Shown: in pieces, positions 11,372 to 26,043 of the stretch
How positions within the stretch are numbered: position 1 is the stretch's first letter
How the letters are laid out: each line of letters opens with the position of its first letter
DNA from: Streptacidiphilus albus JL83
GTDB taxonomy: Bacteria; Actinomycetota; Actinomycetes; Streptomycetales; Streptomycetaceae
NCBI RefSeq assembly: GCF_000744705.1
Contig: NZ_JQML01000001.1
Location: forward strand, 1,302,001 to 1,366,000
DNA length: 64,000 nt
Direction: 5' to 3'
Made by a program: the position numbers and the translations under genes
The notes under the pieces: model-generated
Seen by the model: the letters and a program-made list of their open reading frames with translations, nothing else
The model's database searches: none
Told to the model about the DNA's origin: nothing

Positions 11372-12364
11372 ATGACCGTGACGACGCTGCGGTTCAACCA
11401 GGTGACCCCGGGGCTGGACCGGCACGAGGTCGCCGCCCGCTACCGGGCCACCGTGGAGATGGCCGGCTACGCCGACCGCGAGGGCTTCGACCTGATCAGC
11501 CTGGAGGAGCACCACGGTGCCGACGACGGCTGGAGCCCCTCGCCGCTGTCCACCGCCGGAGCGATCTTCGGGGCCACCCAGCGGATCGGCGTGATGCTCT
11601 GCGCGATCCTCACCCCGCTCTACGAGCCGCTGCGGCTGGCCGAGGACGTCGCCGTGCTCGACCACCTCAGCGGTGGCCGGCTCAGCCTGGTCGCCGGCCT
11701 CGGCTACCGCCCGGAGGAGTACGCGGCGCTGGGGCGGGACTGGGCACAGCGCGGCCGGCTCCAGGACGAGGTGCTGAGCACCCTGCTGGCCGCGTGGACC
11801 GGCGAGCCGTTCGAGTACCGGGGCCGGACGGTGCGGGTGACGCCGCGACCGCTGACCGACCCGCATCCCACGCTGATGATCGGCGGCTCCTCCCGGGTCG
11901 CGGTGCGGCGCGCGGTCCGGCTCGGGCTGCCCTTCATGACCGCCGCCCACCTGCCGGAGCTGGCCGAGTACTACGACCGGCTGGCCGCCGAGGCCGGGCT
12001 GGCCGGCGGGTACGCGCTGCTCCCGCAGAAACTGACCCGGATGGTCCACTGCACCGAGGACCCGGACCGGGCCTGGGCCCGCTACGGCAGCCACTTCCTG
12101 CACGAGGCCGCGACCTACCGGGGCTGGCAGACCGAGGACATCACCTCGGCCCTCCGCTCGACGGCGCTGACGCCGGAGCAGCTGCGGGCGGAGGGGATCT
12201 ACTGCTGCCTGACCCCGGCGGAGTGCGTGGAGATCGCCCGCGCCGGGGGCCCGTTCGACAGCATCACCCTGCATCCGCTCTGCGGCGGGATACCGGTCGA
12301 CGCCGGCTGGGAGAGCCTGCGGCTCTTCGGCGAGCAGGTCCTCCCTCAGCTCGCCACGCTCTGA
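11372..12364 (+). CDS. LLM-class (luciferase-like) flavin-dependent oxidoreductase
   Basis: 330-residue TIM-barrel protein of the bacterial luciferase/F420 superfamily. Family marks are ISLEEHHGADDGWSPSP near residue 45, ILTPLYEPLRLAEDVAVLD and LSLVAGLGYRPEEYAALG. It likely uses FMNH2 or F420H2; the cofactor cannot be settled here. A strong GGAGG lies just before the ATG. No reductase partner is adjacent, unlike the LLM gene at 41641. Confidence 0.88.
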   Translation: MTVTTLRFNQVTPGLDRHEVAARYRATVEMAGYADREGFDLISLEEHHGADDGWSPSPLSTAGAIFGATQRIGVMLCAILTPLYEPLRLAEDVAVLDHLSGGRLSLVAGLGYRPEEYAALGRDWAQRGRLQDEVLSTLLAAWTGEPFEYRGRTVRVTPRPLTDPHPTLMIGGSSRVAVRRAVRLGLPFMTAAHLPELAEYYDRLAAEAGLAGGYALLPQKLTRMVHCTEDPDRAWARYGSHFLHEAATYRGWQTEDITSALRSTALTPEQLRAEGIYCCLTPAECVEIARAGGPFDSITLHPLCGGIPVDAGWESLRLFGEQVLPQLATL

Positions 12365-12368
12365 CCGA

Positions 12369-12400
12369 CCGGGTCGGCGCCGGCGCCGGCGCCGACCCGG
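12369..12400. terminator. Perfect 32-bp palindrome between convergent genes
   Basis: The sequence from 12369 to 12400 equals its own reverse complement (arms CCGGGTCGGCGCC and GGCGCCGACCCGG). It starts 4 bp after the LLM stop and ends 4 bp before the permease stop, so it can terminate both transcripts. Confidence 0.8.
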
Positions 12401-13230
12401 CAGCTCACTTGGCCAGCCGGCCCAGCAGCGAGGAGGCCGCCAGGATGCCCGCCAGCGCGGCGACCACCAGCACGGTGAAGTCCGTGCCGAGGTGCGAGGG
12501 CGTGCCCAGCAGCAGCCCGCGCAGCGCGTCGACCTGGTAGCTGAGCGGGTTGCACTTGCTGATCGCCTGCAGCCATCCCGGCATCACGCTGACCGGGTAG
12601 AGCGCGCTGGAGCTGAAGAACAGCGGCATGGTGATGGCCTGGCCGATGCCCATCAGCCGGTCGCGGGTGAGCACGATCCCGGCGATGGTCATCGACAGGC
12701 AGGAGAAGAACGCCCCGCCGAGGATGACGACCACCGCCACGCCGATCAGCTTGAGCGGGTTCCAGGTCAGGCCGACGCCGAGGAGCGCGGCGATGACGAC
12801 CACCACCAGCGCCTGGATCACCGCCTTCACCCCGGCCGCGAAGGCCTTGCCGGTGACCAGCGCGGCCCGGGGGGTGGGGGTGACCAGCAGCTTGGTGAGA
12901 ACGCCGGCGTCCCGCTCCCAGATGATCATGATGCCGTAGAAGATGGCGATGAACATCGCCGACTGGGCGATGATGCCCGGCGCCAGGAAGTCCAGGTAGG
13001 GAATGCCGCCGGTGGGGATGGCGTGCAGCCGGGTGAAGGTCTCGCCGTAGATCAGCAGCCACAGGGCGGGCTGGATCGCCCGGGTGTAGAGCTCGGTGCG
13101 GTCGTGGCGCAGCTTCTGCAGCTCCACGATGCACATCGCGCCGACCCGGGCCGGGACGACGGTCCAGCCGGTCCGCGCGCGGGGCGGGGAGAGCAGCAGG
13201 TCGAGCGGTCGCCCGTGCTCGGCCCCCGCG

Positions 13231-14138
<908 letters not shown>

Positions 14139-14142
<4 letters not shown>

Positions 14143-14594
14143 GGCCCCTCCAGGTCCTCGTGCAGGCCTTGGGCGAGCCTGCGCAGCGCGGGCACCGAGG
14201 CGGCGAGCGCCGCCCGGTCCTCGTGGTCGAGCGCCGCGACCTGGTTGCGCACCAGGTCGGTCCGGCGCGCGTCCCAGTCGAGCAGCCGTTCCACCGCTGC
14301 GGGCGTCACCGTGAGGTGCACGGCCCGCCGGTCCTCGGCGGCGGTCCGCCGCTCCAGCAGCCCGACCGCGACCAGCTGGTTGACCAGGGTGGACACCGAG
14401 TTGCCGGCCAGGTGCAGCTCCTTGGCGGCGGCGGACACCCCGATGCCGGGGTTGGCGCGGACGAGTCGGATCAGCCCGATCTGCGCCCCGCGCAGCCTCA
14501 GGTCGCCCTCCCCCTGCTGCGAGCGGCGGACGATCAGTCGCTGGATACCGACCAGCAACTCGGCAAAGTCCTCTGGCACTTCAGCCTCGGTCAT
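14139..14594 (-). CDS. MarR-family regulator of the ABC exporter
   Basis: 151 residues with the MarR winged helix (AAKELHLAGNSVSTLVNQLV) and wing (RTAAEDRRAVHLTVTPA). It is the first gene of a three-gene operon with the ABC ATPase and permease, so it probably represses its own operon through the palindrome at 14604-14624 and responds to the pump's substrate. Confidence 0.9.
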
Positions 14595-14624: not shown

Positions 14625-14646
14625 CTTCCAGGGGGCCGGAAAAGAA

Positions 14647-14686
14647 CCGCGCCGGACCCCTGAGTCATCAGGGATCCGGCGCGGTG
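14647..14686 (-). terminator. Chitinase terminator
   Basis: ACCGCGCCGGA (14647-14657) pairs with TCCGGCGCGGT (14676-14686), and inner CCCTGA/TCAGGG arms extend the stem. On the minus strand the hairpin is followed by TTCTTTTCC, so it terminates leftward transcription from the chitinase gene. The gap 14690-14843 also carries a direct repeat (GTTCGACCCGCCGGCCTC, twice) running into the chitinase stop codon. Confidence 0.75.
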
Positions 14687-14843
14687 CCACAGTTGGAGAG
14701 CCGCGGTTCGGAAAGACGCAGTTGGGCGAACCGCCGTTGGTCCGGTCCGATCCCGGAACCGCTCGCACCGGGATCAGACCGGGTTCAGGTCCGCGCGGTG
14801 CGCGGAGTCGTTCGACCCGCCGGCCTCGTTCGACCCGCCGGCC

Positions 14844-16193
14844 TCAGTGGCCGAGGCTCTTGCCCAGCGCGGCGGTCAGCGCGCCGTTCGAGGTGTCGCC
14901 GTCGAGCGACCACACCATCGTTCCGCGCAGGCCCAGCGCGTTGATGTAGGCCCCCTTGACCGCCACCGAGAGCGGGCTGTCATAGGTGTAGAAGGTTCCG
15001 GTCGCCGCGTCGTACTTGTACGGCGCGTCCGACAGCGGGTCGAAGTAGGTCTTGCCGGGGGCGGCCACCACCGTGTTGTAGTTCGGCGTCCCGCCGCCGG
15101 CGGTCGCGGTCTGGAACAGCCCGTCGCCGTTCGGCCCGGGAGCGACCCCGGTCCACTCGTGCGCGTAGTAGGGGATGGAGAGCGAGATCTGCGACGGGCG
15201 CACCCCCTGGGACTCGTAGTACTGCACCGCCTGGTTGACACTGAACCTGTTGTTCGCCGGGTTCGGGTCGCGCGGGTCGGTGAACAGCGCGGACGCGAAG
15301 TCGGTCGGACCGGCCGGCTCCCAACTGCCGTGGTAGTCGAAGGTCATGACGTTGAACCAGTCCACCACCTTGGCCACCTGCTTGAGCTGCAGCTGCGCCG
15401 CGAAGACCGGGTTGGCCGAGGTGTTGGCGGTCAGCAGGTAGTGCGAGTCCCCCGTGCCGCTCGCACTGGCCGCGTCCAGCTGGGTGCGGAACTCCTGCAT
15501 CAGCGCGGTGTAGTCGGGGGTGTCCTGCGCGCCGTAGGGGTTGCCGTTGCCGGGCTCGCCCGGGTACTCCCAGTCGACCGCGAAGCCGTCGAAGATCCCC
15601 GCCGCCGCGCCGGCCGGAAGGCCGGGCAGGTCGCCCTTGATGTACTGGTCGATGCAGGAGGCGACGAACTTCTGCCGTCCGGCGGCGGTGGAGGCCAGCT
15701 GGGAGAACTGGCTCGACCAGGCCCAGCCGCCGATCGACATCACGATCTTCAGCTTGGGGTAGGCCGCCTTGAGCTCGCGCAGCTGGTTGAAGTTGCCCAG
15801 CAGCGTCTGCCCGGCCGCGTCGGCCTGCCCGTTCACCGACTCGCTCGCCGCGAACGGCCGCTGGTAGTCGGCCCAGCTGTCACCGCTGGAGCAGGTGCCG
15901 TCGGGCGCGATGTCGCTGAAGGCGTAGTCGAGTTCGGTGAGGTGGTTGATCTCGCCGGTGGTGATCAGGTTCTTCTCCAGGAAGCCGGAGTAGATGCCCC
16001 ACTGGGTGAAGTAGCCGACGAGCTGCTTCTCCTGCTGGCTGCCACTGGCCGCCGGGGCAGGCCTGGCCTGGGCCTGCGCGCTTCCGGGCAGCGCCGCCAG
16101 CAGCGCGACGGCGCAGCCGGCCGAGGTGGCGGCGGCGAGCAGCCGCCGGGGACGGCGGCGACCGGACGAACCGGTGGAGGACGGTGCGGACAT
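14844..16193 (-). CDS. Secreted GH18 chitinase-like hydrolase
   Basis: 449 residues with a signal peptide (RRRPRRLLAAATSAGCAV then hydrophobic core, cleavage near AQA-QA) and one GH18 barrel: LVGYFTQWGIYSG, KIVMSIGGWAWSSQFS, the catalytic strand DGFAVDWEYPG and WFNVMTFDYHG. The DxxDxDxE motif has Ala where the first Asp of the DxDxE core is usual; the acid Glu and neighbouring Asp are present. No carbohydrate-binding module is seen. Two dre-like DasR boxes lie upstream. Confidence 0.9.
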   Translation of the reverse strand: MSAPSSTGSSGRRRPRRLLAAATSAGCAVALLAALPGSAQAQARPAPAASGSQQEKQLVGYFTQWGIYSGFLEKNLITTGEINHLTELDYAFSDIAPDGTCSSGDSWADYQRPFAASESVNGQADAAGQTLLGNFNQLRELKAAYPKLKIVMSIGGWAWSSQFSQLASTAAGRQKFVASCIDQYIKGDLPGLPAGAAAGIFDGFAVDWEYPGEPGNGNPYGAQDTPDYTALMQEFRTQLDAASASGTGDSHYLLTANTSANPVFAAQLQLKQVAKVVDWFNVMTFDYHGSWEPAGPTDFASALFTDPRDPNPANNRFSVNQAVQYYESQGVRPSQISLSIPYYAHEWTGVAPGPNGDGLFQTATAGGGTPNYNTVVAAPGKTYFDPLSDAPYKYDAATGTFYTYDSPLSVAVKGAYINALGLRGTMVWSLDGDTSNGALTAALGKSLGH

Positions 16194-16294
16194 GGGCTCT
16201 CCTCAACAAGTGCCGTGGGGGGCATGGGGGAAGGGCGGATACATCGCACACAGGGGCACGTCGGAGACTGTGCCGCCCCCCGACGTCGCACCAA

Positions 16295-16332
16295 CATGGT
16301 ATAGACCACGTGAGGGCTAGGTATAGTCCATG
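16295..16332 (-). promoter_or_regulatory. Two DasR-like (dre) boxes upstream of the chitinase
   Basis: TGGTATAGACCA (16297-16308) and AGGTATAGTCCA (16319-16330) are direct repeats 22 bp apart, both close to the TGGTCTAGACCA core bound by DasR and found at Streptomyces chitinase promoters. The binding claim is by similarity. Confidence 0.65.
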
Positions 16333-16418
16333 TGATCGTGCGGGGTCAATGCTCCGTCAGTTGCACGGCGCCGGAATGGAGTCGGCCGAAAGCGTCCATC
16401 GCGGTGATAATCGCCAGC

Positions 16419-17171
16419 ATGGACGAAATCATGGACTGGACGGCGCTGGAGGCGATCGACCAGCTCTGCGCCCGGGTGTACATCGGCCTGCGCGACGACC
16501 GGCTCCGCAGCGACGACGTGGTGGAGCTGGCCTGCCTGCTGCTCGACTGGGGGCGCTACGAGCCGGCCGTCGAGGAGGTGGTGGCCCGCCGCCCGGAGGA
16601 GATCGGTCCGCAGCGGCTGCGCGAGCTGGCCGAGCAGCTCCTGGAGGGCACCGCCTTCCTGCCGGACTTCCGGCTCGCCCCGGAACGCCTCGTCCTGCTG
16701 GAACAGGCCCTGGGCACGGTGGCGGCCGACCTGCCGCCCTCCTGGTCCGGCAGCACCGCGCGGCTGGTTCCGATGTCGGACTCCTCCCCGCTCGACTACA
16801 AGGTCGAGCTCACCGGTGGCCGGATGCACGGCAACGGCCTGCGCACCGTCGACGCCGAGGACCTCACCTCCGCGCTCATCGCCGTCGCGGACCACGTCCA
16901 GGAGGGAGTGATGGAGTTCGACTGGCGGGTCTGGCCCGTCTGCCCGGTCCACCACCTCGGCCTGCACCCCGTCGCGGACGGCGGGACCGCCGTCTGGCAG
17001 TGCCGCCTGGGCCCGCACGCCGTCGCCGCCGTCGGCAGCCTGCCGCCCGCCGCCAGGCACGACGACGGCCCCCGTGCACGAGGCGGTCGGGAGGACCGCC
17101 ACGCGCGGCGGGGGCCGTCGTCGGGAACCGGCGGACAGCGGGGTCAGTCGCTGCCGACGCCGTTGGAGTAG
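16419..17171 (+). CDS. Uncharacterised actinobacterial protein with Cys/His-bearing C-terminus
   Basis: About 250 residues from the ATG at 16419; I do not recognise the family with certainty. The N-terminal 90 residues are helical and acidic (DDVVELACLLLDWGRYEPAV). The C-terminal segment WPVCPVHHLGLHP then VWQCRLGPHAVAAVG has a C-x2-H and later Cys that could bind zinc. After VAAVGSLPP the frame runs through a 15-bp-stem terminator and ends inside the convergent gene, so the natural C-terminus is probably near 17055 and the last 35 to 40 codons may reflect a lost stop. Confidence 0.65.
   Translation: MDEIMDWTALEAIDQLCARVYIGLRDDRLRSDDVVELACLLLDWGRYEPAVEEVVARRPEEIGPQRLRELAEQLLEGTAFLPDFRLAPERLVLLEQALGTVAADLPPSWSGSTARLVPMSDSSPLDYKVELTGGRMHGNGLRTVDAEDLTSALIAVADHVQEGVMEFDWRVWPVCPVHHLGLHPVADGGTAVWQCRLGPHAVAAVGSLPPAARHDDGPRARGGREDRHARRGPSSGTGGQRGQSLPTPLE
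17060..17123. terminator. Large bidirectional terminator hairpin inside an open frame
   Basis: CGACGACGGCCCCCG (17060-17074) pairs perfectly with CGGGGGCCGTCGTCG (17109-17123), and GGCGGTC/GACCGCC forms an inner stem. It lies within the 3' part of the rightward frame ending at 17171 and just beyond the stop of the leftward gene at 17144. Confidence 0.8.
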
Positions 17172-18946
17172 CCGGTCATGTTGTAGGTGCCGAAGCCGTT
17201 CTCCACCGGGCCGCCGGTGTTGTTGATGCAGTGCAGGATGCCTCCGCCGCCGACGCCGTTGAGGCAGACGATCATCAGGTCGGTGAAGACCACACCGGGC
17301 GTGTCCGGGACCTCGTAGGCCCGGTCGGTGTAGATGTCGGCCTGCAGGTCGAAGTAGCAGTAGCTGCCCAGTCCCCAGGCCAGGTGGTCGCTGACGGAGT
17401 CGGCGACCTTGTAGGCGGCGTAGCCGTTGGTGCCGTCGTGGACCCAGGCGGACTGGGTCGGGACGTCGTAGGGGTGCTCGTTCTGGAAGAAGTAGGTGCG
17501 GCCGTGCTCGCCGTTCCAGAGCACCTCGTACTTCTGGTAGTGCTCGACGGCCAGGCCGTAGGCGGTGACCCGGTCGCCGTTGACGAGGAAGCCGGTGTCG
17601 GCCGGGTTGACCGACCAGCCCACGGTGCCGTCGTTGCCGTGGTCGGCCCGCCAGAGCCAGAGGTTGTCGCAGATCACGTCGTTGCTGTCGAGCTGGATGC
17701 TGACCGCGGCGCCACCGGCGACGGCGCCGCCGATGCGGGCGTAGACGTCGAAGAGCACGGTGGGGTTGTCGGCGTGCCGGGCCCGGCTGCGGCCGTGGCC
17801 GACCCGGAGCAGCACCGGCGAGTCGGCGGAGGCGGCCTCCAGGATCACCCCGGCGACGGAGACCCCGCCGACGTCGGCCACCTCGATCAGCGAGTTGCCG
17901 TGCGTGGCCTGGAGGGTGGCCAGGCCGAGTCCGAGGACGACGGTGCTGGTCCGGGTCACCCGGAGCGGCGCGGAGAGGGCGTAGACGCCCGGGGTGAGCA
18001 GCAGGTGCAGCCCCCGGTCGAGGGCCTGGTTGAGGGTGGCGGCGGAGTCGCCGGGCCGGGCCACGTGGAAGCGGTCCAGCGGGATGCTGTACCCCTTCGC
18101 CCGGCCGCCCGCCCAACTGGTCCCGGCCGAGTTGCTGCGGAGCGCGGGCACGAAGACCTGGTAGCGGCCGTGCGCGTCGACCGTGAGGAAGGGCTTCTCC
18201 CGAACGGTCGGGGTCTCGTCGACCGTGGTGAAGGGGGGATCGGGGAAGCTCTGGGCCGGGGCGCCCTCGGTGCCGACGAAGACCATGTTCCAGTTGGAGC
18301 CGGTCCAGCTGCCGAAGCTGTCGTTGCGGGACAGCCACTGCTGCTGCGAACCCGACTGGACCTGGCCGTCGACCACGCTGTCGGCCAGGAATCCGCCGCT
18401 GGACCACTGGTTGCCGGGCGGGCTGGGCCAGAGCGACAGGTCGCCCTTGATGTGCGCCCGGCGCATCGGCCCGGCCTGGGCCACCGCCCAGCGGTCCAGC
18501 CCGTCCGGCGGGACGATGCAGAGGTTCTCGGCGCAGCGCCAGAAGTCCTGCGTCCCGTTGCCCTGCAACCACTGCGCGTCGACCGTGACATGACCGTTGA
18601 TCACCACGTCGTCCGGGCTGTCGCCGAGGCCCAGCACATGGGTGTAGAAGCCGACGTTGACATCGACGTTGTAGCTGCCCGGCCGGAAGGCCAGCGCATA
18701 CCGCTCGGTGCCGAACTGGTTGGACTGCTGAGTGTTGAACACGGCGTCGACCTGGGCCTGAATCGCCGCGTCGCCCATGGAGGGGTCGAAGACCAGGACG
18801 TTGGCGCCCAGGTCCGCGGCTCCACGGCCGTGGCCGGCCGGTGACGAGGCGAGGGCGGATCCGGCCGAGAGCTCGCCGACCAGCGGCAGCGCGGCGACGA
18901 CGGCCGCACCGCGGAGCACGGCACGACGGGTGGGGAAGTTGGACAT
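17144..18946 (-). CDS. Tat-exported right-handed beta-helix protein (pectate-lyase-like)
   Basis: 600 residues. The N-terminus NFPTRRAVLRGAAVVAALP is a twin-arginine signal, cleaved near ALA-SS. The body (ANVLVFDPSMGDAAIQAQV, FRPGSYNVDVNVGFYTHVLG, HGNSLIEVADVGG, VEHYQKYEVLWNGEHG) matches a streptomycete family with beta-helix repeats that is often auto-named adenylyl cyclase or coagulation factor 5/8 protein; no cyclase motif is present. A glycan-active role is more likely. The ATG at 18946 has AGGGAG upstream. A LacI-type palindrome lies 56 bp upstream. Confidence 0.8.
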   Translation of the reverse strand: MSNFPTRRAVLRGAAVVAALPLVGELSAGSALASSPAGHGRGAADLGANVLVFDPSMGDAAIQAQVDAVFNTQQSNQFGTERYALAFRPGSYNVDVNVGFYTHVLGLGDSPDDVVINGHVTVDAQWLQGNGTQDFWRCAENLCIVPPDGLDRWAVAQAGPMRRAHIKGDLSLWPSPPGNQWSSGGFLADSVVDGQVQSGSQQQWLSRNDSFGSWTGSNWNMVFVGTEGAPAQSFPDPPFTTVDETPTVREKPFLTVDAHGRYQVFVPALRSNSAGTSWAGGRAKGYSIPLDRFHVARPGDSAATLNQALDRGLHLLLTPGVYALSAPLRVTRTSTVVLGLGLATLQATHGNSLIEVADVGGVSVAGVILEAASADSPVLLRVGHGRSRARHADNPTVLFDVYARIGGAVAGGAAVSIQLDSNDVICDNLWLWRADHGNDGTVGWSVNPADTGFLVNGDRVTAYGLAVEHYQKYEVLWNGEHGRTYFFQNEHPYDVPTQSAWVHDGTNGYAAYKVADSVSDHLAWGLGSYCYFDLQADIYTDRAYEVPDTPGVVFTDLMIVCLNGVGGGGILHCINNTGGPVENGFGTYNMTGYSNGVGSD

Positions 18947-19001
18947 GGCTCTCCCTGGCGAGGTGGTTGGGGAGGGTGCTGCGGCTCGTCCTGGAGCGCA
19001 A

Positions 19002-19013
19002 GAGAGCGCTCTC
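19002..19013. promoter_or_regulatory. LacI-family-like operator
   Basis: GAGAGCGCTCTC is a perfect 12-bp palindrome with a central CG, the layout of LacI-family sites in streptomycetes. It lies between the beta-helix gene and the divergent GH38 mannosidase gene and could control both. Confidence 0.6.
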
Positions 19014-19191
19014 AGGGGGAAGTGAAGCAGGTGGGCCATACAGCGTCAATAGCCTGTAGGCGGCGGCAGTTCACCCGTGCCGCTGCGTTCACTGGTCGAA
19101 CGGAGCGACGCCCGCGCGGAATGGCCGGTCCGGTTGCGTCCGCGGGGCGCGTTCCGTGCCTATTCTGGACATCCCGAGTAAGGACTCGCGC

Positions 19192-22100
19192 ATGCACGAC
19201 GATCGCCTGCTCGCCGAGGCACGGCTCGAACGGATGCTGTCCCAGCGCATCCGGCCCGCCGTCCACACCGCCTCCGTGCCGCTGGAACTGACGGCCTGGC
19301 AGGTCCCCGACGAGCCGGTGCCGGTCGCCGAGGCCATGGCCGGACTGGAGGCCGAGGGACGCCCCTTCGCGGTGGGCGAGCGCTGGGGTCGGCCGTGGTC
19401 CACGCTGTGGATCCGGGCCACCGGCGAGGTGCCGGCCGAGTGGGCCGGGCGGCGGGTGGAGGCGGTGTTCGACCTCGGGTTCGTCGGCGCCTGGCCGGGC
19501 CATCAGGCCGAGGCCCTGGTCCACGACGCGGACGGACGGCCGCTCAAGGGCATCGAGCCGCAGAACCAGTACGTGCCGGTGGCGCAGCGGGCCGAGGGCG
19601 GCGAGCGGGTCCACCTGCTGCTGGAGGCCGCCGCCAACCCCGACGTCCTGGGGAACGGCTTCGTCCGCCCCACCCCCTTCGGCGACAAGCTCACCGCGCC
19701 GGCCGACCCGCTCTACACCATGGCCCGCGCCGACCTCGCCGTCCTGGACGAGGACGTCTGGCACCTGGCGCTCGACCTGGAGGTGGCCGGCGGAGTGATG
19801 CACGAGCTGTCGACCGGCGACCCGCGCCGGCACGAGCTGCTGCGCGCCGTCGACCACGCCCTGGACGCCGTCGATCCGCTGGACGTGCCGGGCACCGCCG
19901 CCGAGGCCCGCGCCCGGCTGGTCGAGGTGCTGGCCCGACCGGCCCACGCCAGCGCCCACACCGTCGCCGCCGTCGGCCACGCCCATATCGACAGCGCCTG
20001 GCTCTGGCCGCTCCGCGAGACCGAGCGCAAGGCGGCCCGGACCTTCGCCAATGTGACCGCCCTGGCGCAGCAGTACCCCGACTTCGTCTTCGCCTGCTCG
20101 CAGGCCCAGCAGTACGCCTGGGTGCGGGACCGCTGGCCGGAGATCTACCGGCGGATGCAGGAGGCGGCACGGGCCGGGCAGTGGGCGCCGGTCGGCGGAA
20201 TGTGGGTCGAGGCGGACGGCAACCTGCCCGGCGGCGAGGCGCTGGCCCGTCAACTGGTGCACGGCAAGCGCTTCTTCGCCGAGGAGTTCGGCGTGGAGTG
20301 CGAGGGGGTGTGGCTGCCGGACTCCTTCGGCTACACCGCCGCCTTCCCGCAGCTGGCGCTGCTCGCCGGGATGAACTGGTTCCTCACCCAGAAGATCTCC
20401 TGGAACCAGAGCAACTCCTTTCCGCACCACACCTTCTGGTGGGAGGGGATCGACGGCAGCCGGGTGTTCACCCACTTCCCCTCCGTCGACACCTACAACG
20501 CGGTGCTGTCCGGACGGGAGTTGGCGCACGCCGAGCGCAACTACCGGGAGAAGGGCCGCGGCACCCGCTCGCTCGCGCCCTTCGGCCACGGCGACGGCGG
20601 GGGCGGCCCCACCCGCGAGATGATGGAGCGGGCCCGCCGGCTGCGCGACCTGGAGGGCTCGCCCCGGGTGGAGGTGCAGCACCCCAACCGCTTCTTCGCC
20701 GACGCCCGGGCCGAGTACCCGGACGCCCCGGTCTGGGTCGGCGAGCTGTACCTGGAGCTGCACCGCGCGACCTACACCAGCCAGGCCCGCACCAAGTCCG
20801 GCAACCGCCGCAGCGAGCACCTGCTGCGCGAGGCCGAGCTGTGGTCGGCGACGGCCGCCGTCCACGCCGTCCACGCCGGGTTCGGCTATCCGTACCAGCG
20901 GTTGGACCGGCTGTGGAAGACCGTGCTGCTGCACCAGTTCCACGACATCCTGCCCGGCAGCTCCATCGCCTGGGTGCACCGCGAGGCCGAGGCGACCCAT
21001 GCGGCCGTGGCCGCCGAGCTGAACGCGATCATCGCCGAGGCCCGTGCCGCGCTCGCCGACGGCGGCAGCGGCAGCGGCAGCGCCGGGACGTCGGTGCTGA
21101 ACGCCTCACCACGCGAACGGACGGAGGTGGTCGCCGTCACCGCCCCGGCCGCCGCCCCGCCCGGTGCCCGCAGCCAGCCCCTGGCCGACGGCCGCACCGC
21201 CGTGCTGACCCGTGTCCCCGGCTCCGGTGCGGCCCCGCTCGGCGCGCCGCCGGACCGACAGCCCGCCGAGGTGACGGTCGGTCGGGCGGACGGGCGGATC
21301 GTGCTGGACAACGGCCTGGTCCGGCTGGTCGTCGACGCCGACGGGCTGCTCAGCTCCGTCCGCGACCTGGTCGCCGACCGCGAGGCGCTGGCCCCGGGCG
21401 CTCCCGGCAACCTGCTCCAGCTCCACACCGACCTGCCCAACCACTGGGACGCCTGGGACATCGACGCCCACTACCGGCGCCGGCGCACCGACCTGACCGA
21501 CGCCGAGGCGGTGGAGGTCGTCGCCGAGGGCCCGCTGCGCGCCGCCGTCCGGATCGAGCGCGGTTTCGGCGACTCCCGGATCGTGCAGACCGTCACCCTG
21601 GACTGCGGCAGCCCGCGCGTCGACATCGACACCGAGGTCGACTGGCACGAGCGCGAGAAGATCCTCAAGGCCGCGTTCCCGCTGGACATCCGGGCCGACC
21701 ACGCCGCCTCCGAGATCCAGTTCGGCCATGTCCGGCGTCCCACCCACACCAACACCAGTTGGGACGCGGCCCGCTTCGAGGTCTGCCAGCACCGCTGGAC
21801 CCACCTCGGCGAGCCCGGCTACGGCATCGCCGTGGTCAACGACTCCACCTACGGCCTCGACGTCACCCGCGACGTCCGCGCGGACGGCGGCACCACCACC
21901 ACGCTGCGGCTCAGCCTGCTCCGCGCGCCCCGCGTCCCCGACCCGGGCACCGACCAGGGCCGGCACCGCCTCCGCTACGCCCTGCTGCCGGGCGCCGGCG
22001 TCGCGGACGCCGTCGCGGCCGGCTACGCGCTCAACCTCCCGCTGCGGACCGGCCCGGCGACCGTCCCGTTCGCCCCGCTCGTGACCACCGACGGCGCGGC

Positions 22101-22344
22101 CGTCGTGATCGAGGCGGTGAAGCTGGCCGACGACGGCAGCGGCGACGTGGTCGTCCGGCTCTACGAATCCCTCGGCGGCCGAGCCGCCACCCGCCTCCGA
22201 CCGGCCTTCGCCGTGGCCCAGGCCCGAACCACCGACCTGCTGGAACGCCCGCTCCCCGAACCGCCGCTCCCCCTGACGGACGACGGCGCCGTCCCGCTCA
22301 CCCTCCGCCCCTTCCAGGTGCTGACGCTGCGGCTGCGCCGATAG
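19192..22344 (+). CDS. GH38 alpha-mannosidase
   Basis: 1050-residue retaining alpha-mannosidase. An N-terminal beta-sandwich (about 1-250) precedes the catalytic barrel with the zinc motif GHAHIDSAWLWPLRET near residue 265, the nucleophile Asp in WLPDSFGYTAAFPQ and the late zinc ligands in HQFHDILPGSS. C-terminal sandwich domains follow. No signal peptide is seen, so it is cytoplasmic and likely trims imported mannosides. The ATG at 19192 has AGGA eight bases upstream. Its last 33 bases are duplicated beyond the MurG-like gene. Confidence 0.93.
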   Translation: MHDDRLLAEARLERMLSQRIRPAVHTASVPLELTAWQVPDEPVPVAEAMAGLEAEGRPFAVGERWGRPWSTLWIRATGEVPAEWAGRRVEAVFDLGFVGAWPGHQAEALVHDADGRPLKGIEPQNQYVPVAQRAEGGERVHLLLEAAANPDVLGNGFVRPTPFGDKLTAPADPLYTMARADLAVLDEDVWHLALDLEVAGGVMHELSTGDPRRHELLRAVDHALDAVDPLDVPGTAAEARARLVEVLARPAHASAHTVAAVGHAHIDSAWLWPLRETERKAARTFANVTALAQQYPDFVFACSQAQQYAWVRDRWPEIYRRMQEAARAGQWAPVGGMWVEADGNLPGGEALARQLVHGKRFFAEEFGVECEGVWLPDSFGYTAAFPQLALLAGMNWFLTQKISWNQSNSFPHHTFWWEGIDGSRVFTHFPSVDTYNAVLSGRELAHAERNYREKGRGTRSLAPFGHGDGGGGPTREMMERARRLRDLEGSPRVEVQHPNRFFADARAEYPDAPVWVGELYLELHRATYTSQARTKSGNRRSEHLLREAELWSATAAVHAVHAGFGYPYQRLDRLWKTVLLHQFHDILPGSSIAWVHREAEATHAAVAAELNAIIAEARAALADGGSGSGSAGTSVLNASPRERTEVVAVTAPAAAPPGARSQPLADGRTAVLTRVPGSGAAPLGAPPDRQPAEVTVGRADGRIVLDNGLVRLVVDADGLLSSVRDLVADREALAPGAPGNLLQLHTDLPNHWDAWDIDAHYRRRRTDLTDAEAVEVVAEGPLRAAVRIERGFGDSRIVQTVTLDCGSPRVDIDTEVDWHEREKILKAAFPLDIRADHAASEIQFGHVRRPTHTNTSWDAARFEVCQHRWTHLGEPGYGIAVVNDSTYGLDVTRDVRADGGTTTTLRLSLLRAPRVPDPGTDQGRHRLRYALLPGAGVADAVAAGYALNLPLRTGPATVPFAPLVTTDGAAVVIEAVKLADDGSGDVVVRLYESLGGRAATRLRPAFAVAQARTTDLLERPLPEPPLPLTDDGAVPLTLRPFQVLTLRLRR
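22310..22342 (+). repeat. Direct repeat copy 1 (mannosidase 3' end)
   Basis: This 33-bp segment encodes the last residues (FQVLTLRLRR) of the mannosidase and recurs at 23588-23620 with one difference (G at 22320, A at 23598). The two copies bracket the MurG-like gene. Confidence 0.9.
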
Positions 22345-22413
22345 CCGCCGCCTGCGGGTGTGGCGAGGTCGTGGCGGTTAATGTGGTGCCCTACGAGCGA
22401 GTTGGGAGTTTTG

Positions 22414-23586
22414 ATGGGTTTCGGTACAGGTGCTGCTCAGCCGTTTCGTCTGATCGTCACGGGCGGGGGAACGGGCGGCCACACCTATCCGGCACTCACT
22501 GCGGTCCGGGCGCTGCAGGCGCGGCTGTCCGCCTCCGGGCGGGCGCTTGACGTGCTGTGGGTGGGTACAGCGGAGGGCTTGGAAGCGCGGGTCGCAGCAG
22601 CGGAGGGCATTGCGTTCCGGACGGTGGCAACGGGGAAGATCCGTAGGTCGGGCAACCCGCTGAAGCTGGTGTCACCGCAGAACGTCCGGGACATGGGTCG
22701 GGTGCCGCTCGGGGCGGCACAGGCCCGCACGATCGTGGCGGATTTCACGCCGTCGGTGGTGTTCTCCACCGGCGGCTACGTGGCGGTACCGGTGGGGCTG
22801 GCTGCGCGGATGTGCCGTCGGCCGCTGGTGGTGCACGAGCAGACGGTTCGGCTGGGGCTGGCGAACCGGGCGCTGGTGCGGACCGCGGCGCGGGTCGCGC
22901 TGTCGTCCGAGGCCTCGCTGGAACTGCTGCCGGATGCGGTGCGCTCCTCGGCGGTGGTGACGGGTAACCCGGTGCGGCCTGCGGTGCTGAACGGGCACGC
23001 GCAGAAGGCGGTGGAGGCGTTGGGCCTCTACGGCTTCGACCAGCGGTTGCCGACCGTGTACGTGACGGGCGGGGCGCAGGGCTCGGTGCAGATCAACACG
23101 CTGGTCGCCGAGGTGCTGCCGTGGCTGCTGGAGCGGGCGAACGTGGTCCACCAGTGCGGGCCGGCGAATGTGGCGGCGCTGGAGTCGGTGGCGGCCGCGC
23201 TGCCAACGGAGTTGGCGGGGCGCTACCAGCTGACGGGGTTCGTGGCCGGGGAGGTCGGCGATGTGCTGGCGCTGGCGGACGTGGTGGTCTCGCGGAGCGG
23301 GGCGGGCACGATCAGCGAGCTGACCGCACTGGGCAAGGCGTCGGTGCTGATCCCGCTGGCGAGTGCGGCAGGCAACGAGCAGGCGCACAACGCCGCGCAC
23401 CTGCAGGCGCAGGGCGCGGCGGTGGCGCTGCTGGGCGAGACCGACGGGGAGCGGCTGCGCGAGGCGCTGGGTCCGCTGCTCGACGATCCCGCCAGGCGCG
23501 CTCAGGTCGCCGACCGGGCGCGGGCGCTGGGACGACCGGACGCCGCCGAGCGGCTGGTCGACGTGCTCCTGGACGCGGCCGGGTAG
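22414..23586 (+). CDS. Stand-alone MurG-like glycosyltransferase
   Basis: 390-residue GT-B enzyme related to MurG, which adds GlcNAc to lipid I. It has the N-terminal GGGTGGHTYPAL loop, FSTGGYVAVPV, HEQTVRLGLANR and the donor-binding SRSGAGTISELTALGKA with NEQAHNA. Canonical murG lies in a division cluster with ftsW/ftsQ, absent here, so this is a paralogue; it may glycosylate lipid I or another lipid-linked sugar. Codon use is looser (more A and T at third positions) than in its neighbours, and the gene is bracketed by the repeated mannosidase end, suggesting acquisition. The ATG at 22414 has GGGAG upstream. Confidence 0.85.
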   Translation: MGFGTGAAQPFRLIVTGGGTGGHTYPALTAVRALQARLSASGRALDVLWVGTAEGLEARVAAAEGIAFRTVATGKIRRSGNPLKLVSPQNVRDMGRVPLGAAQARTIVADFTPSVVFSTGGYVAVPVGLAARMCRRPLVVHEQTVRLGLANRALVRTAARVALSSEASLELLPDAVRSSAVVTGNPVRPAVLNGHAQKAVEALGLYGFDQRLPTVYVTGGAQGSVQINTLVAEVLPWLLERANVVHQCGPANVAALESVAAALPTELAGRYQLTGFVAGEVGDVLALADVVVSRSGAGTISELTALGKASVLIPLASAAGNEQAHNAAHLQAQGAAVALLGETDGERLREALGPLLDDPARRAQVADRARALGRPDAAERLVDVLLDAAG

Positions 23587-23587
23587 G

Positions 23588-23620
23588 CCTTCCAGGTACT
23601 GACGCTGCGGCTGCGCCGAT
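23588..23620 (+). repeat. Direct repeat copy 2
   Basis: Second copy of the mannosidase 3'-terminal 33 bp, beginning one base after the MurG-like stop codon. It has no reading frame role here. Confidence 0.9.
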
Positions 23621-23715
23621 CGGCGCCCGCCGGATAGCTCCGCACCGGGGCTGTCGGTGGTGCGGGGTACCGTGATCGGGTCAGGGAGCAGCTCGACCGG
23701 TACGGGGGACGCGTC

Positions 23716-24735
23716 ATGAAGCAGTCGGCCACAGGGGCTCTGCTGGGACTGGCCATCGGGGACGCCATGGGGTTCCCGACCGAGTTCAACAGCATCGCGC
23801 AGATCGAGGCGAAGTCGGGGCCCTGGCGGGGGCTGCCGCTCCCGGTACAGGGCGGGGTCTCCTACGTGACCGACGACACCCAGATGACGCTGGCGCTCGG
23901 CGAGGGGCTGGTCGAGGCGATGGCTCGGGGGCCGCTCAGCGCGGAGCTGCTGGAGCCGCCGGTGCGGGCGGCGTTCGTGGAGTGGTCCTACTCCCCCGAG
24001 AACAACCGGGCGCCGGGCATGACCTGCATGCGCGCCTGCGACGCGCTGGCGGGGCGCGGACCCTGGCAGGCGGCGAGCGAGAAGAACTCCAAGGGCTGCG
24101 GCGCCAATATGCGGGTGGCCCCGCTGGGCCTGGTCCCGGGGCTGACCCAGGACCAGCGCTCCGGCGCCGCGCAGCTCCAGTCCGGGCTGACGCACGGTCA
24201 TCCGACCGCCCTGGCCGCGAGCGAGCTGACGGCGCAGACGGTGTGGCTGCTGGCGCAGGGCGCGGCGCCCGGCGAGCTGCTGCCGCTGCTGCGCGCCCAC
24301 GCCCGGGAGAACCGGACGGTCTACCGGGCGGACTGGCTGGGCGATCTGGCCCTGCGCACCCAGGACCCGACACCGGAGGAGTTCATCGCCCGGGGCTGGG
24401 ACGAGTGCCTGGCGGTCCTGGACCGGCTGGACCGCGCCCTGGACGCGCCGGACCGGGAGGCCGACCCCTGCCTGGCCACCGGCGCGGGCTGGATAGCCGA
24501 GGAGGCCCTCGCCACCGGCCTGTTCTGCTTCCTGCTCTTCCCTGACGACCCGCAGTCGGTGGTCCGCCGGGGCGCGTACTCCTCGGGCGACTCCGACTCC
24601 ATCGCCGCCCTCGCCGGGGCCTTCGCCGGGGCCCACCTGGGCGCCGACGCCTGGCCCGACGAGTGGACCGGGACCATCGAGTACCGCGACCGGCTGCTGG
24701 CGCTCGGCCGTGCCTGGGACGCGCCGGTCGGCTGA
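23716..24735 (+). CDS. ADP-ribosylglycohydrolase family protein
   Basis: 339 residues with the DraG/ARH-like all-alpha fold: ATGALLGLAIGDAMGFPTEF at the N-terminus, VTDDTQMTLALGEGL holding metal ligands, and SGDSDSIAALAGAFAGAHLG near the C-terminus with the second metal cluster. These enzymes remove ADP-ribose from proteins or small molecules using two Mg2+ or Mn2+ ions. No ADP-ribosyltransferase gene is nearby, so its target is unknown. Confidence 0.9.
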   Translation: MKQSATGALLGLAIGDAMGFPTEFNSIAQIEAKSGPWRGLPLPVQGGVSYVTDDTQMTLALGEGLVEAMARGPLSAELLEPPVRAAFVEWSYSPENNRAPGMTCMRACDALAGRGPWQAASEKNSKGCGANMRVAPLGLVPGLTQDQRSGAAQLQSGLTHGHPTALAASELTAQTVWLLAQGAAPGELLPLLRAHARENRTVYRADWLGDLALRTQDPTPEEFIARGWDECLAVLDRLDRALDAPDREADPCLATGAGWIAEEALATGLFCFLLFPDDPQSVVRRGAYSSGDSDSIAALAGAFAGAHLGADAWPDEWTGTIEYRDRLLALGRAWDAPVG

Positions 24736-25161: not shown

Positions 25162-26043
25162 ATGAACATGTTCGGATTCTCCGTCGTAGACCTACCCGCC
25201 CCACCGCTCGAAAGACTGCTCGAACTCGCCCAGGAGACCGGCTATCGCGGCCTGGAGCTGCGCTCCGGTCCCGGCGAGACGGTCCACCTCGGCCTCGACC
25301 GGGCCGAGCGCCAGCAGATCGCCGTCGCCTTCGACCGGGCCGGGGTCTCCCTGCTCGGGCTGGTCACCTCGCTCGACGTCACCGCCCCCGGCGAGGACGG
25401 ACAGCTGCTCGCCGAACTGCGCCGCCACATCTGGCTGGCCGCCGATGTCGGCGCCCGCTACCTCCGGGTTCTGCCGTGCGGCGCAGACACCGGTGGCAGC
25501 GGGTCCGGCGTCCGGGCCGAGCGCAGGCTCCGGGCCGTCGCCAGCCTGGCCGCGACCTGCGGGGTGCGGATCCTGCTGCAGACCCAGGACGCGCAGGACT
25601 CGGTGGGCCGGGTGGCCGGCCTGCTCGACCGGATCGGCGCGGCCGGGGTCGGTGCCTACTGGGACGTCCAGGGCACCCCGGAGCCGGGCGGGGACCTCCC
25701 CCGCGCCTATGCCCGGCTCGCCTCCCACCTGGGCTTCATCCAGGTCCACGACGTCCGGGAGCTCGCACCCGCCGGGGAGGGCACCGTCCCTGACGGCGCG
25801 CCGGGCCGGACGCCGGACGACGCGGCCGGACCGCCGGAGCTGCGGACGGCGCTGCGGACCGCCGTCGACAACGGCTACGACGGCTGGTTCGTCTGGAAGT
25901 ACGACGCCCGCCGCCCGCCGCAGCCGGACGGCTTCGCCCCGGCCCTCGCCGCCGGACGCGACTGGCTGGAGCGCACCACCTGCGCCTCGCGCTCGGGCCG
26001 AGCCCGACGACGGGCCGAGGTCGGCGCGGACACCCGCCACTGA
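25162..26043 (+). CDS. Sugar phosphate isomerase/epimerase-like TIM barrel
   Basis: 293 residues of the xylose isomerase-like AP_endonuc_2 fold. The N-terminus MFGFSVVDLPAPPLERLLEL, the QETGYRGLELRSG strand, ARYLRVLPCG and the metal-site regions GAYWDVQGTP and GFIQVHDV are typical. It probably isomerises or epimerises a sugar or cyclitol with a divalent metal. The ATG at 25162 has GAGG eight bases upstream. The last 25 residues are basic and probably unstructured. Confidence 0.8.
   Translation: MNMFGFSVVDLPAPPLERLLELAQETGYRGLELRSGPGETVHLGLDRAERQQIAVAFDRAGVSLLGLVTSLDVTAPGEDGQLLAELRRHIWLAADVGARYLRVLPCGADTGGSGSGVRAERRLRAVASLAATCGVRILLQTQDAQDSVGRVAGLLDRIGAAGVGAYWDVQGTPEPGGDLPRAYARLASHLGFIQVHDVRELAPAGEGTVPDGAPGRTPDDAAGPPELRTALRTAVDNGYDGWFVWKYDARRPPQPDGFAPALAAGRDWLERTTCASRSGRARRRAEVGADTRH

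Follow-up and report, generated by a model that had tools for sequence, protein, structure and literature searches.

Integrative elements such as the AICEs use the ends of tRNA genes or protein genes as attachment sites. The locus described here lies in a window of 64,000 nucleotides from Streptacidiphilus albus JL83 and resembles such insertions in that the 3′ end of a gene, encoding a GH38 α-mannosidase, is duplicated at both edges of an insert that closes the reading frame. It differs from them in having no integrase, in lacking a matching attachment site in the MurG-bearing mobile DNA searched, and in occupying a site that is not seen to be reused in relatives.

Two other described processes are comparable. 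Healed double-strand breaks in Streptomyces ambofaciens carried five insertions of endogenous DNA, the shortest of 30 bp and the longest of 18.8 kb, and end joining is offered by the authors, as a speculation, as a way in for exogenous DNA (PMC5869714). The likeness would lie in a streptomycete chromosome capturing a fragment with neither a transposase nor an integrase; the fragments there were, however, endogenous, and the available portions of that report describe insertions at the break sites, not flanking duplications of the 33-bp type. Homology-facilitated illegitimate recombination has also been described in bacteria (PMC3240628). We would expect a partial duplication of a resident gene round foreign DNA to be a possible outcome of it, whereas at the present locus only 33 bp are shared and the edges are abrupt.

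A repeat pair brackets a single MurG-like gene

The two repeat copies (Table 1) are identical at 32 of 33 bases. When up to three mismatches are allowed, the 33-mer matches at exactly two places in the genome of 9,915,093 bases, and the reversed 33-mer, used as a control, at none. The earlier note had reported such a pair round a MurG-like gene, and this is borne out; it had also taken the repeat for the last 33 bp of the mannosidase gene, which is right in placing it inside the 3′ end but not in its limit, since copy 1 ends within the stop codon (CGA-T/AG). Between the 1.5-kb flanks of the MurG-like gene, the best direct repeat has an ungapped score of 31 (+1/−2); 100 single-base shufflings of the upstream flank gave no score above 20, and 36 other places in the window none above 18. 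The LTLRLRR end of the mannosidase gene, which is strongly conserved, is covered by the repeat. The two copies differ at one third codon position, where copy 1 has G and copy 2 has A; the change is synonymous, and several mannosidase relatives carry G there.

The repeat copies abut the MurG unit, with at most 24 bp to the left and 1 bp to the right. No second gene was called in the insert by the gene finder, and four mechanical ORFs overlapping the MurG-like gene have no Pfam match; the insert accordingly holds no integrase gene by these two measures, as the earlier note had stated. A transposon insertion was considered and rejected, as the insert has no transposase gene and its terminal inverted repeats are at chance level (best match 6, equalled by 59 of 200 shuffles).

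Table 1 Features of the locus and of the loci compared with it. Positions are those of the window unless a locus is named.
Feature	Position	Strand	Remarks
MarR gene	14139-14594		
9.1-kb block	14637..23703		GH18, two genes without Pfam match, GH38 and MurG; absent in G011 and G013
GH38 α-mannosidase, present form, 1062 aa	19156..22344	+	PF01074, PF09261, PF07748, PF17677
Repeat copy 1	22310..22342	+	Within mannosidase 3′ end; encodes FQVLTLRLRR
Inserted segment, 1245 bp	22343..23587	+	Stretch between the two repeat copies
Upstream region accompanying MurG-like gene	22367..22413	+	blastn similarity to L004 and L005, the nearest two MurG loci, begins at 22367
MurG-like GT28 glycosyltransferase, 390 aa	22414..23586	+	PF03033 and PF04101
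Repeat copy 2	23588..23620	+	Starts 1 base past the MurG-like gene stop codon
Displaced mannosidase end, probable	23621..23637	+	In frame, SAPAG then TAG; tail lengths in relatives
Terminator hairpin of original mannosidase end, possible	23637..23668	+	11-bp stem
ADP-ribosylglycohydrolase gene	23716-24735		
TIM-barrel (AP_endonuc_2) gene	25162-26043		
Duplicated mannosidase end of L079	L079:11072-11404 and 12317-12655		Streptomyces endocoffeicus
tRNA-Ser 3′ end copies	L241:17371-17427 and L241:19311-19367		tRNA-Ser itself in L242 (genome 5180947-5181033)
Cassette loci	L191:8004-12670, L192:7983-12755, L187-L189, L170, L174, L177		

The MurG-like protein has both the N and C domains of GT28, and its best NCBIfam match is MurG, but its score on TIGR01133 (234.9 bits) is below the MurG cut-off of 250.25. 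It is 31% and 34% identical to the two other MurG relatives of the genome, which has no close second copy. GT28 activity is predicted from the domains, and a role in the cell envelope is our guess from the context of the cassette described below.

Among 37 window genes of at least 600 bases called by a heuristic gene finder, the 36 others being the CAI reference, the MurG-like gene has the lowest CAI (0.544, z −3.5) and a GC3 (0.887, z −2.8) below that of every other gene. Its codon use is therefore looser than that of its neighbours, as had been noticed at first sight; because GC3 in 34 MurG-like relatives spans 0.75 to 0.97, this may in part be a family trait.

The nearest kin of the MurG-like gene lie in a sugar-gene cassette

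MurG-like matches at E 1e-60 or better occur in 9 of 14 genomes of the genus, the window's genome included, and at E 1e-140 or better in 93 of the 297 genomes of a family sample. The window protein groups with those of L004, L005 and L152 (support 96/94, with the bootstrap not fully settled), each of whose genes adjoins a DegT-type aminotransferase gene; its nearest kin, at 77% identity, lies in a sugar-gene cassette. Such an aminotransferase is found within the 1.5-kb flanks of 13 of 35 genomic MurG-like loci (one of them partial) and is absent from the other 22. On all three virus-classed contigs, the MurG-like gene is accompanied by an aminotransferase and a relative of dTDP-glucose 4,6-dehydratase, with no match there for the ATP-grasp partner, and on both plasmids examined all three partners are annotated, with an LMW phosphatase gene as well on one of the two.

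The foreign origin of the MurG-like gene is argued by its deviant codon use, its cassette-borne kin and the lack of a close copy in the genome, and these sequence comparisons support its interpretation as foreign DNA inserted where the mannosidase gene ends. The best match in the window's genome to the aminotransferase partner is 37%, so the gene would have arrived alone or have later lost its cassette partners. The locus shows that a chromosome can harbour a lone MurG-like gene of the accessory kind found in plasmid and virus-like cassettes.

The cassette recurs with variable make-up: the MurG-like gene faces a gene row that includes a DegT aminotransferase and a dTDP-glucose 4,6-dehydratase, in many cases also an ATP-grasp gene and in some an LMW phosphatase gene. 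It is found on genome contigs as well as on plasmids and virus-classed contigs. PADLOC gave no match for the MurG-like protein or four cassette partners; in PHROGs the MurG-like protein is unmatched, and three of the four partners match broad families.

The original end of the mannosidase

The present stop codon of the mannosidase gene, TAG, is made at the junction, with T from repeat copy 1 and AG from the insert. Behind copy 2, the mannosidase frame stays open for five codons (SAPAG) before reaching TAG, and this in-frame run makes copy 2 the probable original end, now displaced, although by our own estimate only a few-fold likelier than copy 1. The chance of a stop within six codons is 7%. 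Among the 79 named relatives with a covered end, 76 extend by at least one residue past the present last residue, six of these being exactly five residues longer, and three have the same end as copy 1. A possible terminator hairpin of the original end follows; it is weak (z −1.48), with 14 of 200 shuffles folding equally well.

The surrounding 9.1-kb block is new at this locus

The permease region of the window was covered in 11 of 13 congeners, G003 and G006 being left out together with further permease matches of some genomes, and neither the MurG-like gene nor the mannosidase is found there in any of the 11. Two of them, G011 and G013, largely keep the window's surrounding gene order, and in both the MarR gene lies next to the ADP-ribosylglycohydrolase gene, the two being divergent. 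G012 lacks the ADP-ribosylglycohydrolase gene as well. Congener homology reaches 14636 on the left and begins again at 23704 or 23717 on the right. Because the two genes adjoin in two syntenic congeners, the whole 9.1-kb block, including the GH38 and MurG-like genes, is on this comparison of gene order new at this locus. Eight further congeners have the permease gene in other surroundings, with no mannosidase or MurG within 13–19 kb.

The edges of the block carry only short repeats, with direct scores of 8–9 and inverted scores of up to 10. At 80 named mannosidase loci, covered over as much as 8 kb to either side, and at 29 congener loci, covered over 1.5 kb to either side, no relative of the MurG-like or ADP-ribosylglycohydrolase gene lies beside the mannosidase. 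A strict empty site, in which the mannosidase adjoins the ADP-ribosylglycohydrolase gene with a single repeat, did not turn up among the genomes searched. Separately, a TIM-barrel gene between the ADP-ribosylglycohydrolase and permease genes is absent from that place in G011 and G013; its flanks have no long repeats (direct scores 8–9, inverted up to 10).

Origin of the insertion

The reading that we prefer, and to which we give about an even chance, is the one-off capture of a foreign MurG-like fragment during the repair of a break or of replication. A fragment with one MurG-like gene and its own upstream region would have joined the GH38 mannosidase gene in its 3′ end, some 15 bp short of the original stop, with 33 bp of the target being duplicated. 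This could have come about through a break whose long staggered ends were filled in and joined round captured incoming DNA, or through template switching by a replication fork, which then resumed 33 bp further upstream. The frame of the mannosidase would have stayed closed with the loss of five terminal residues and the use of the junction-made stop, and the old end would have been stranded behind the MurG-like gene. The repeat, the foreign gene and the context in relatives are shown by the sequences; the repair route and the identity of the original copy are what we infer. A Ku gene, for host end joining, is present in the genome.

Several points weigh against repair capture. A duplication of 33 bp requires either a template switch or staggered ends of unusual length, a right edge 1 base past the stop is neat for a random fragment, and the tRNA-end repeats of the same genome look like integrase sites. 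In primates, the available part of one survey gives deletions, filler or microhomology at 51 of the 68 breakpoints, and target duplications of 4–21 nt accompanied retrotransposition (PMC2671141), which tells against target duplication being routine in repair captures. If the repair reading is true, the locus would be a natural scar of the capture of a single foreign gene in an actinomycete, with a target duplication and both edges intact, and would exemplify a type of event proposed by the authors of the Streptomyces break-induction work in the available portions of their report (PMC5869714). All in all, the insertion looks like a single chance event in which DNA was taken up and joined in by repair, and not like a novel type of mobile element.

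The earlier note had seen here an insertion that duplicated the mannosidase 3′ end, much in the manner of integration at a gene end. The first half of this stands, as a foreign insertion with a duplicated stretch; the second, taken as the work of an integrase, is not supported, with no matching sites in the MurG-bearing DNA searched, no recurrent use of the site in the relatives compared and no repeats at 35 other MurG-like loci. In its fullest form, which we consider unlikely but deserving of weight, a tyrosine-integrase element would have brought in a MurG cassette by integrating at the end of the GH38 gene, which is conserved, the 33 bp being the attachment core, and the integrase and the rest would later have been deleted, leaving MurG between attL and attR. 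Direct repeats do flank the insert at a gene end, the repeat covers the conserved end of the protein with a synonymous change as its sole difference, MurG relatives occur on a plasmid close to integrase genes and on virus-classed contigs, and the same genome has short stretches bracketed by tRNA-Ser 3′ ends, with no integrase noticed. Such a deletion would, however, need to end at the MurG stop, and the reading is disfavoured because the MurG-bearing DNA searched shows no matching attachment core and the site no reuse in the relatives compared. Twelve MurG loci from ten places match the 33-mer at 19–22 of 33 bases, which is the level of shuffles, and ten whole records or genomes lack it at up to three mismatches. 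Among plasmids, 166 records have partial matches to the 33-mer, of which 12 cover at least 80%, with E values of 0.07 or worse among the 20 matches listed, and a 22-base core has no match in IMG/VR.

As to reuse of the site, for which the comparison covered strains that are not close, an exact tail pattern, which misses divergent tails and is hence a partial test, matches in 42 of 297 family genomes, and the window's genome alone among these has a close pair; none of the 41 others has a close second match, the two matches of G094 lying about 397 kb apart on opposite strands. At mannosidase loci, a second tail copy is found in one of 79 (L079), and it is of different make-up. The possibility that the MurG-like gene moves recurrently as a unit and carries repeats of its own was rejected, as none of the 35 other loci has flanking repeats within 1.5 kb (best scores 11–17).

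A circle or fragment carrying MurG together with a mannosidase end might instead have recombined with the resident gene, an insertion-duplication that we hold to be quite improbable. Only 33 bp are shared, which is too short for ordinary RecA-type crossing-over, both edges are abrupt, and the 80 named and 29 congener loci show no MurG beside a mannosidase. In its favour are the homology-facilitated process already cited and a comparable arrangement downstream of a related mannosidase in Streptomyces endocoffeicus (L079). The duplication there is of 339 bp at 87% identity and comprises the mannosidase end plus the end of the next gene. The copies enclose 912 bp, in which a single gene was called (123 aa, no Pfam match), and about 146 bp of this stretch match a stretch further downstream in the related loci L083, L084 and L075; none of these three loci showed the tail a second time. 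Measured against L083, which has one copy, copy 1 reaches 97% identity and copy 2 88%, so copy 2 may have been imported by homology or may be an old copy that drifted.

That the conserved GH38 3′ end is a target of integrase-less single-gene units moving in trans and leaving a duplicated gene end, with the MurG and S. endocoffeicus units as examples, seems to us very improbable. We give practically no credence to chance or convergent similarity, or to a regulatory repeat without any insertion: the sequence is GC-rich and the protein motif conserved, but a chance origin is ruled out by a score of 31 against a chance maximum of 20 and by just two copies in 9.9 Mb.

Other repeats in the genome

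A census of 1.264 Mb of the genome gave 53 repeat pairs. Apart from the pair under study, these look, with three places examined and the rest judged by eye, like paralogous genes, repeats within proteins, recurring intergenic stretches and tRNAs. Copies of the tRNA-Ser 3′ end, 54–57 bp long, bracket two stretches of 1.6–1.9 kb in which small genes and no integrase were noticed. These tRNA-Ser copies resemble the MurG case in layout, and the small genes between them are toxin-antitoxin-like by eye.
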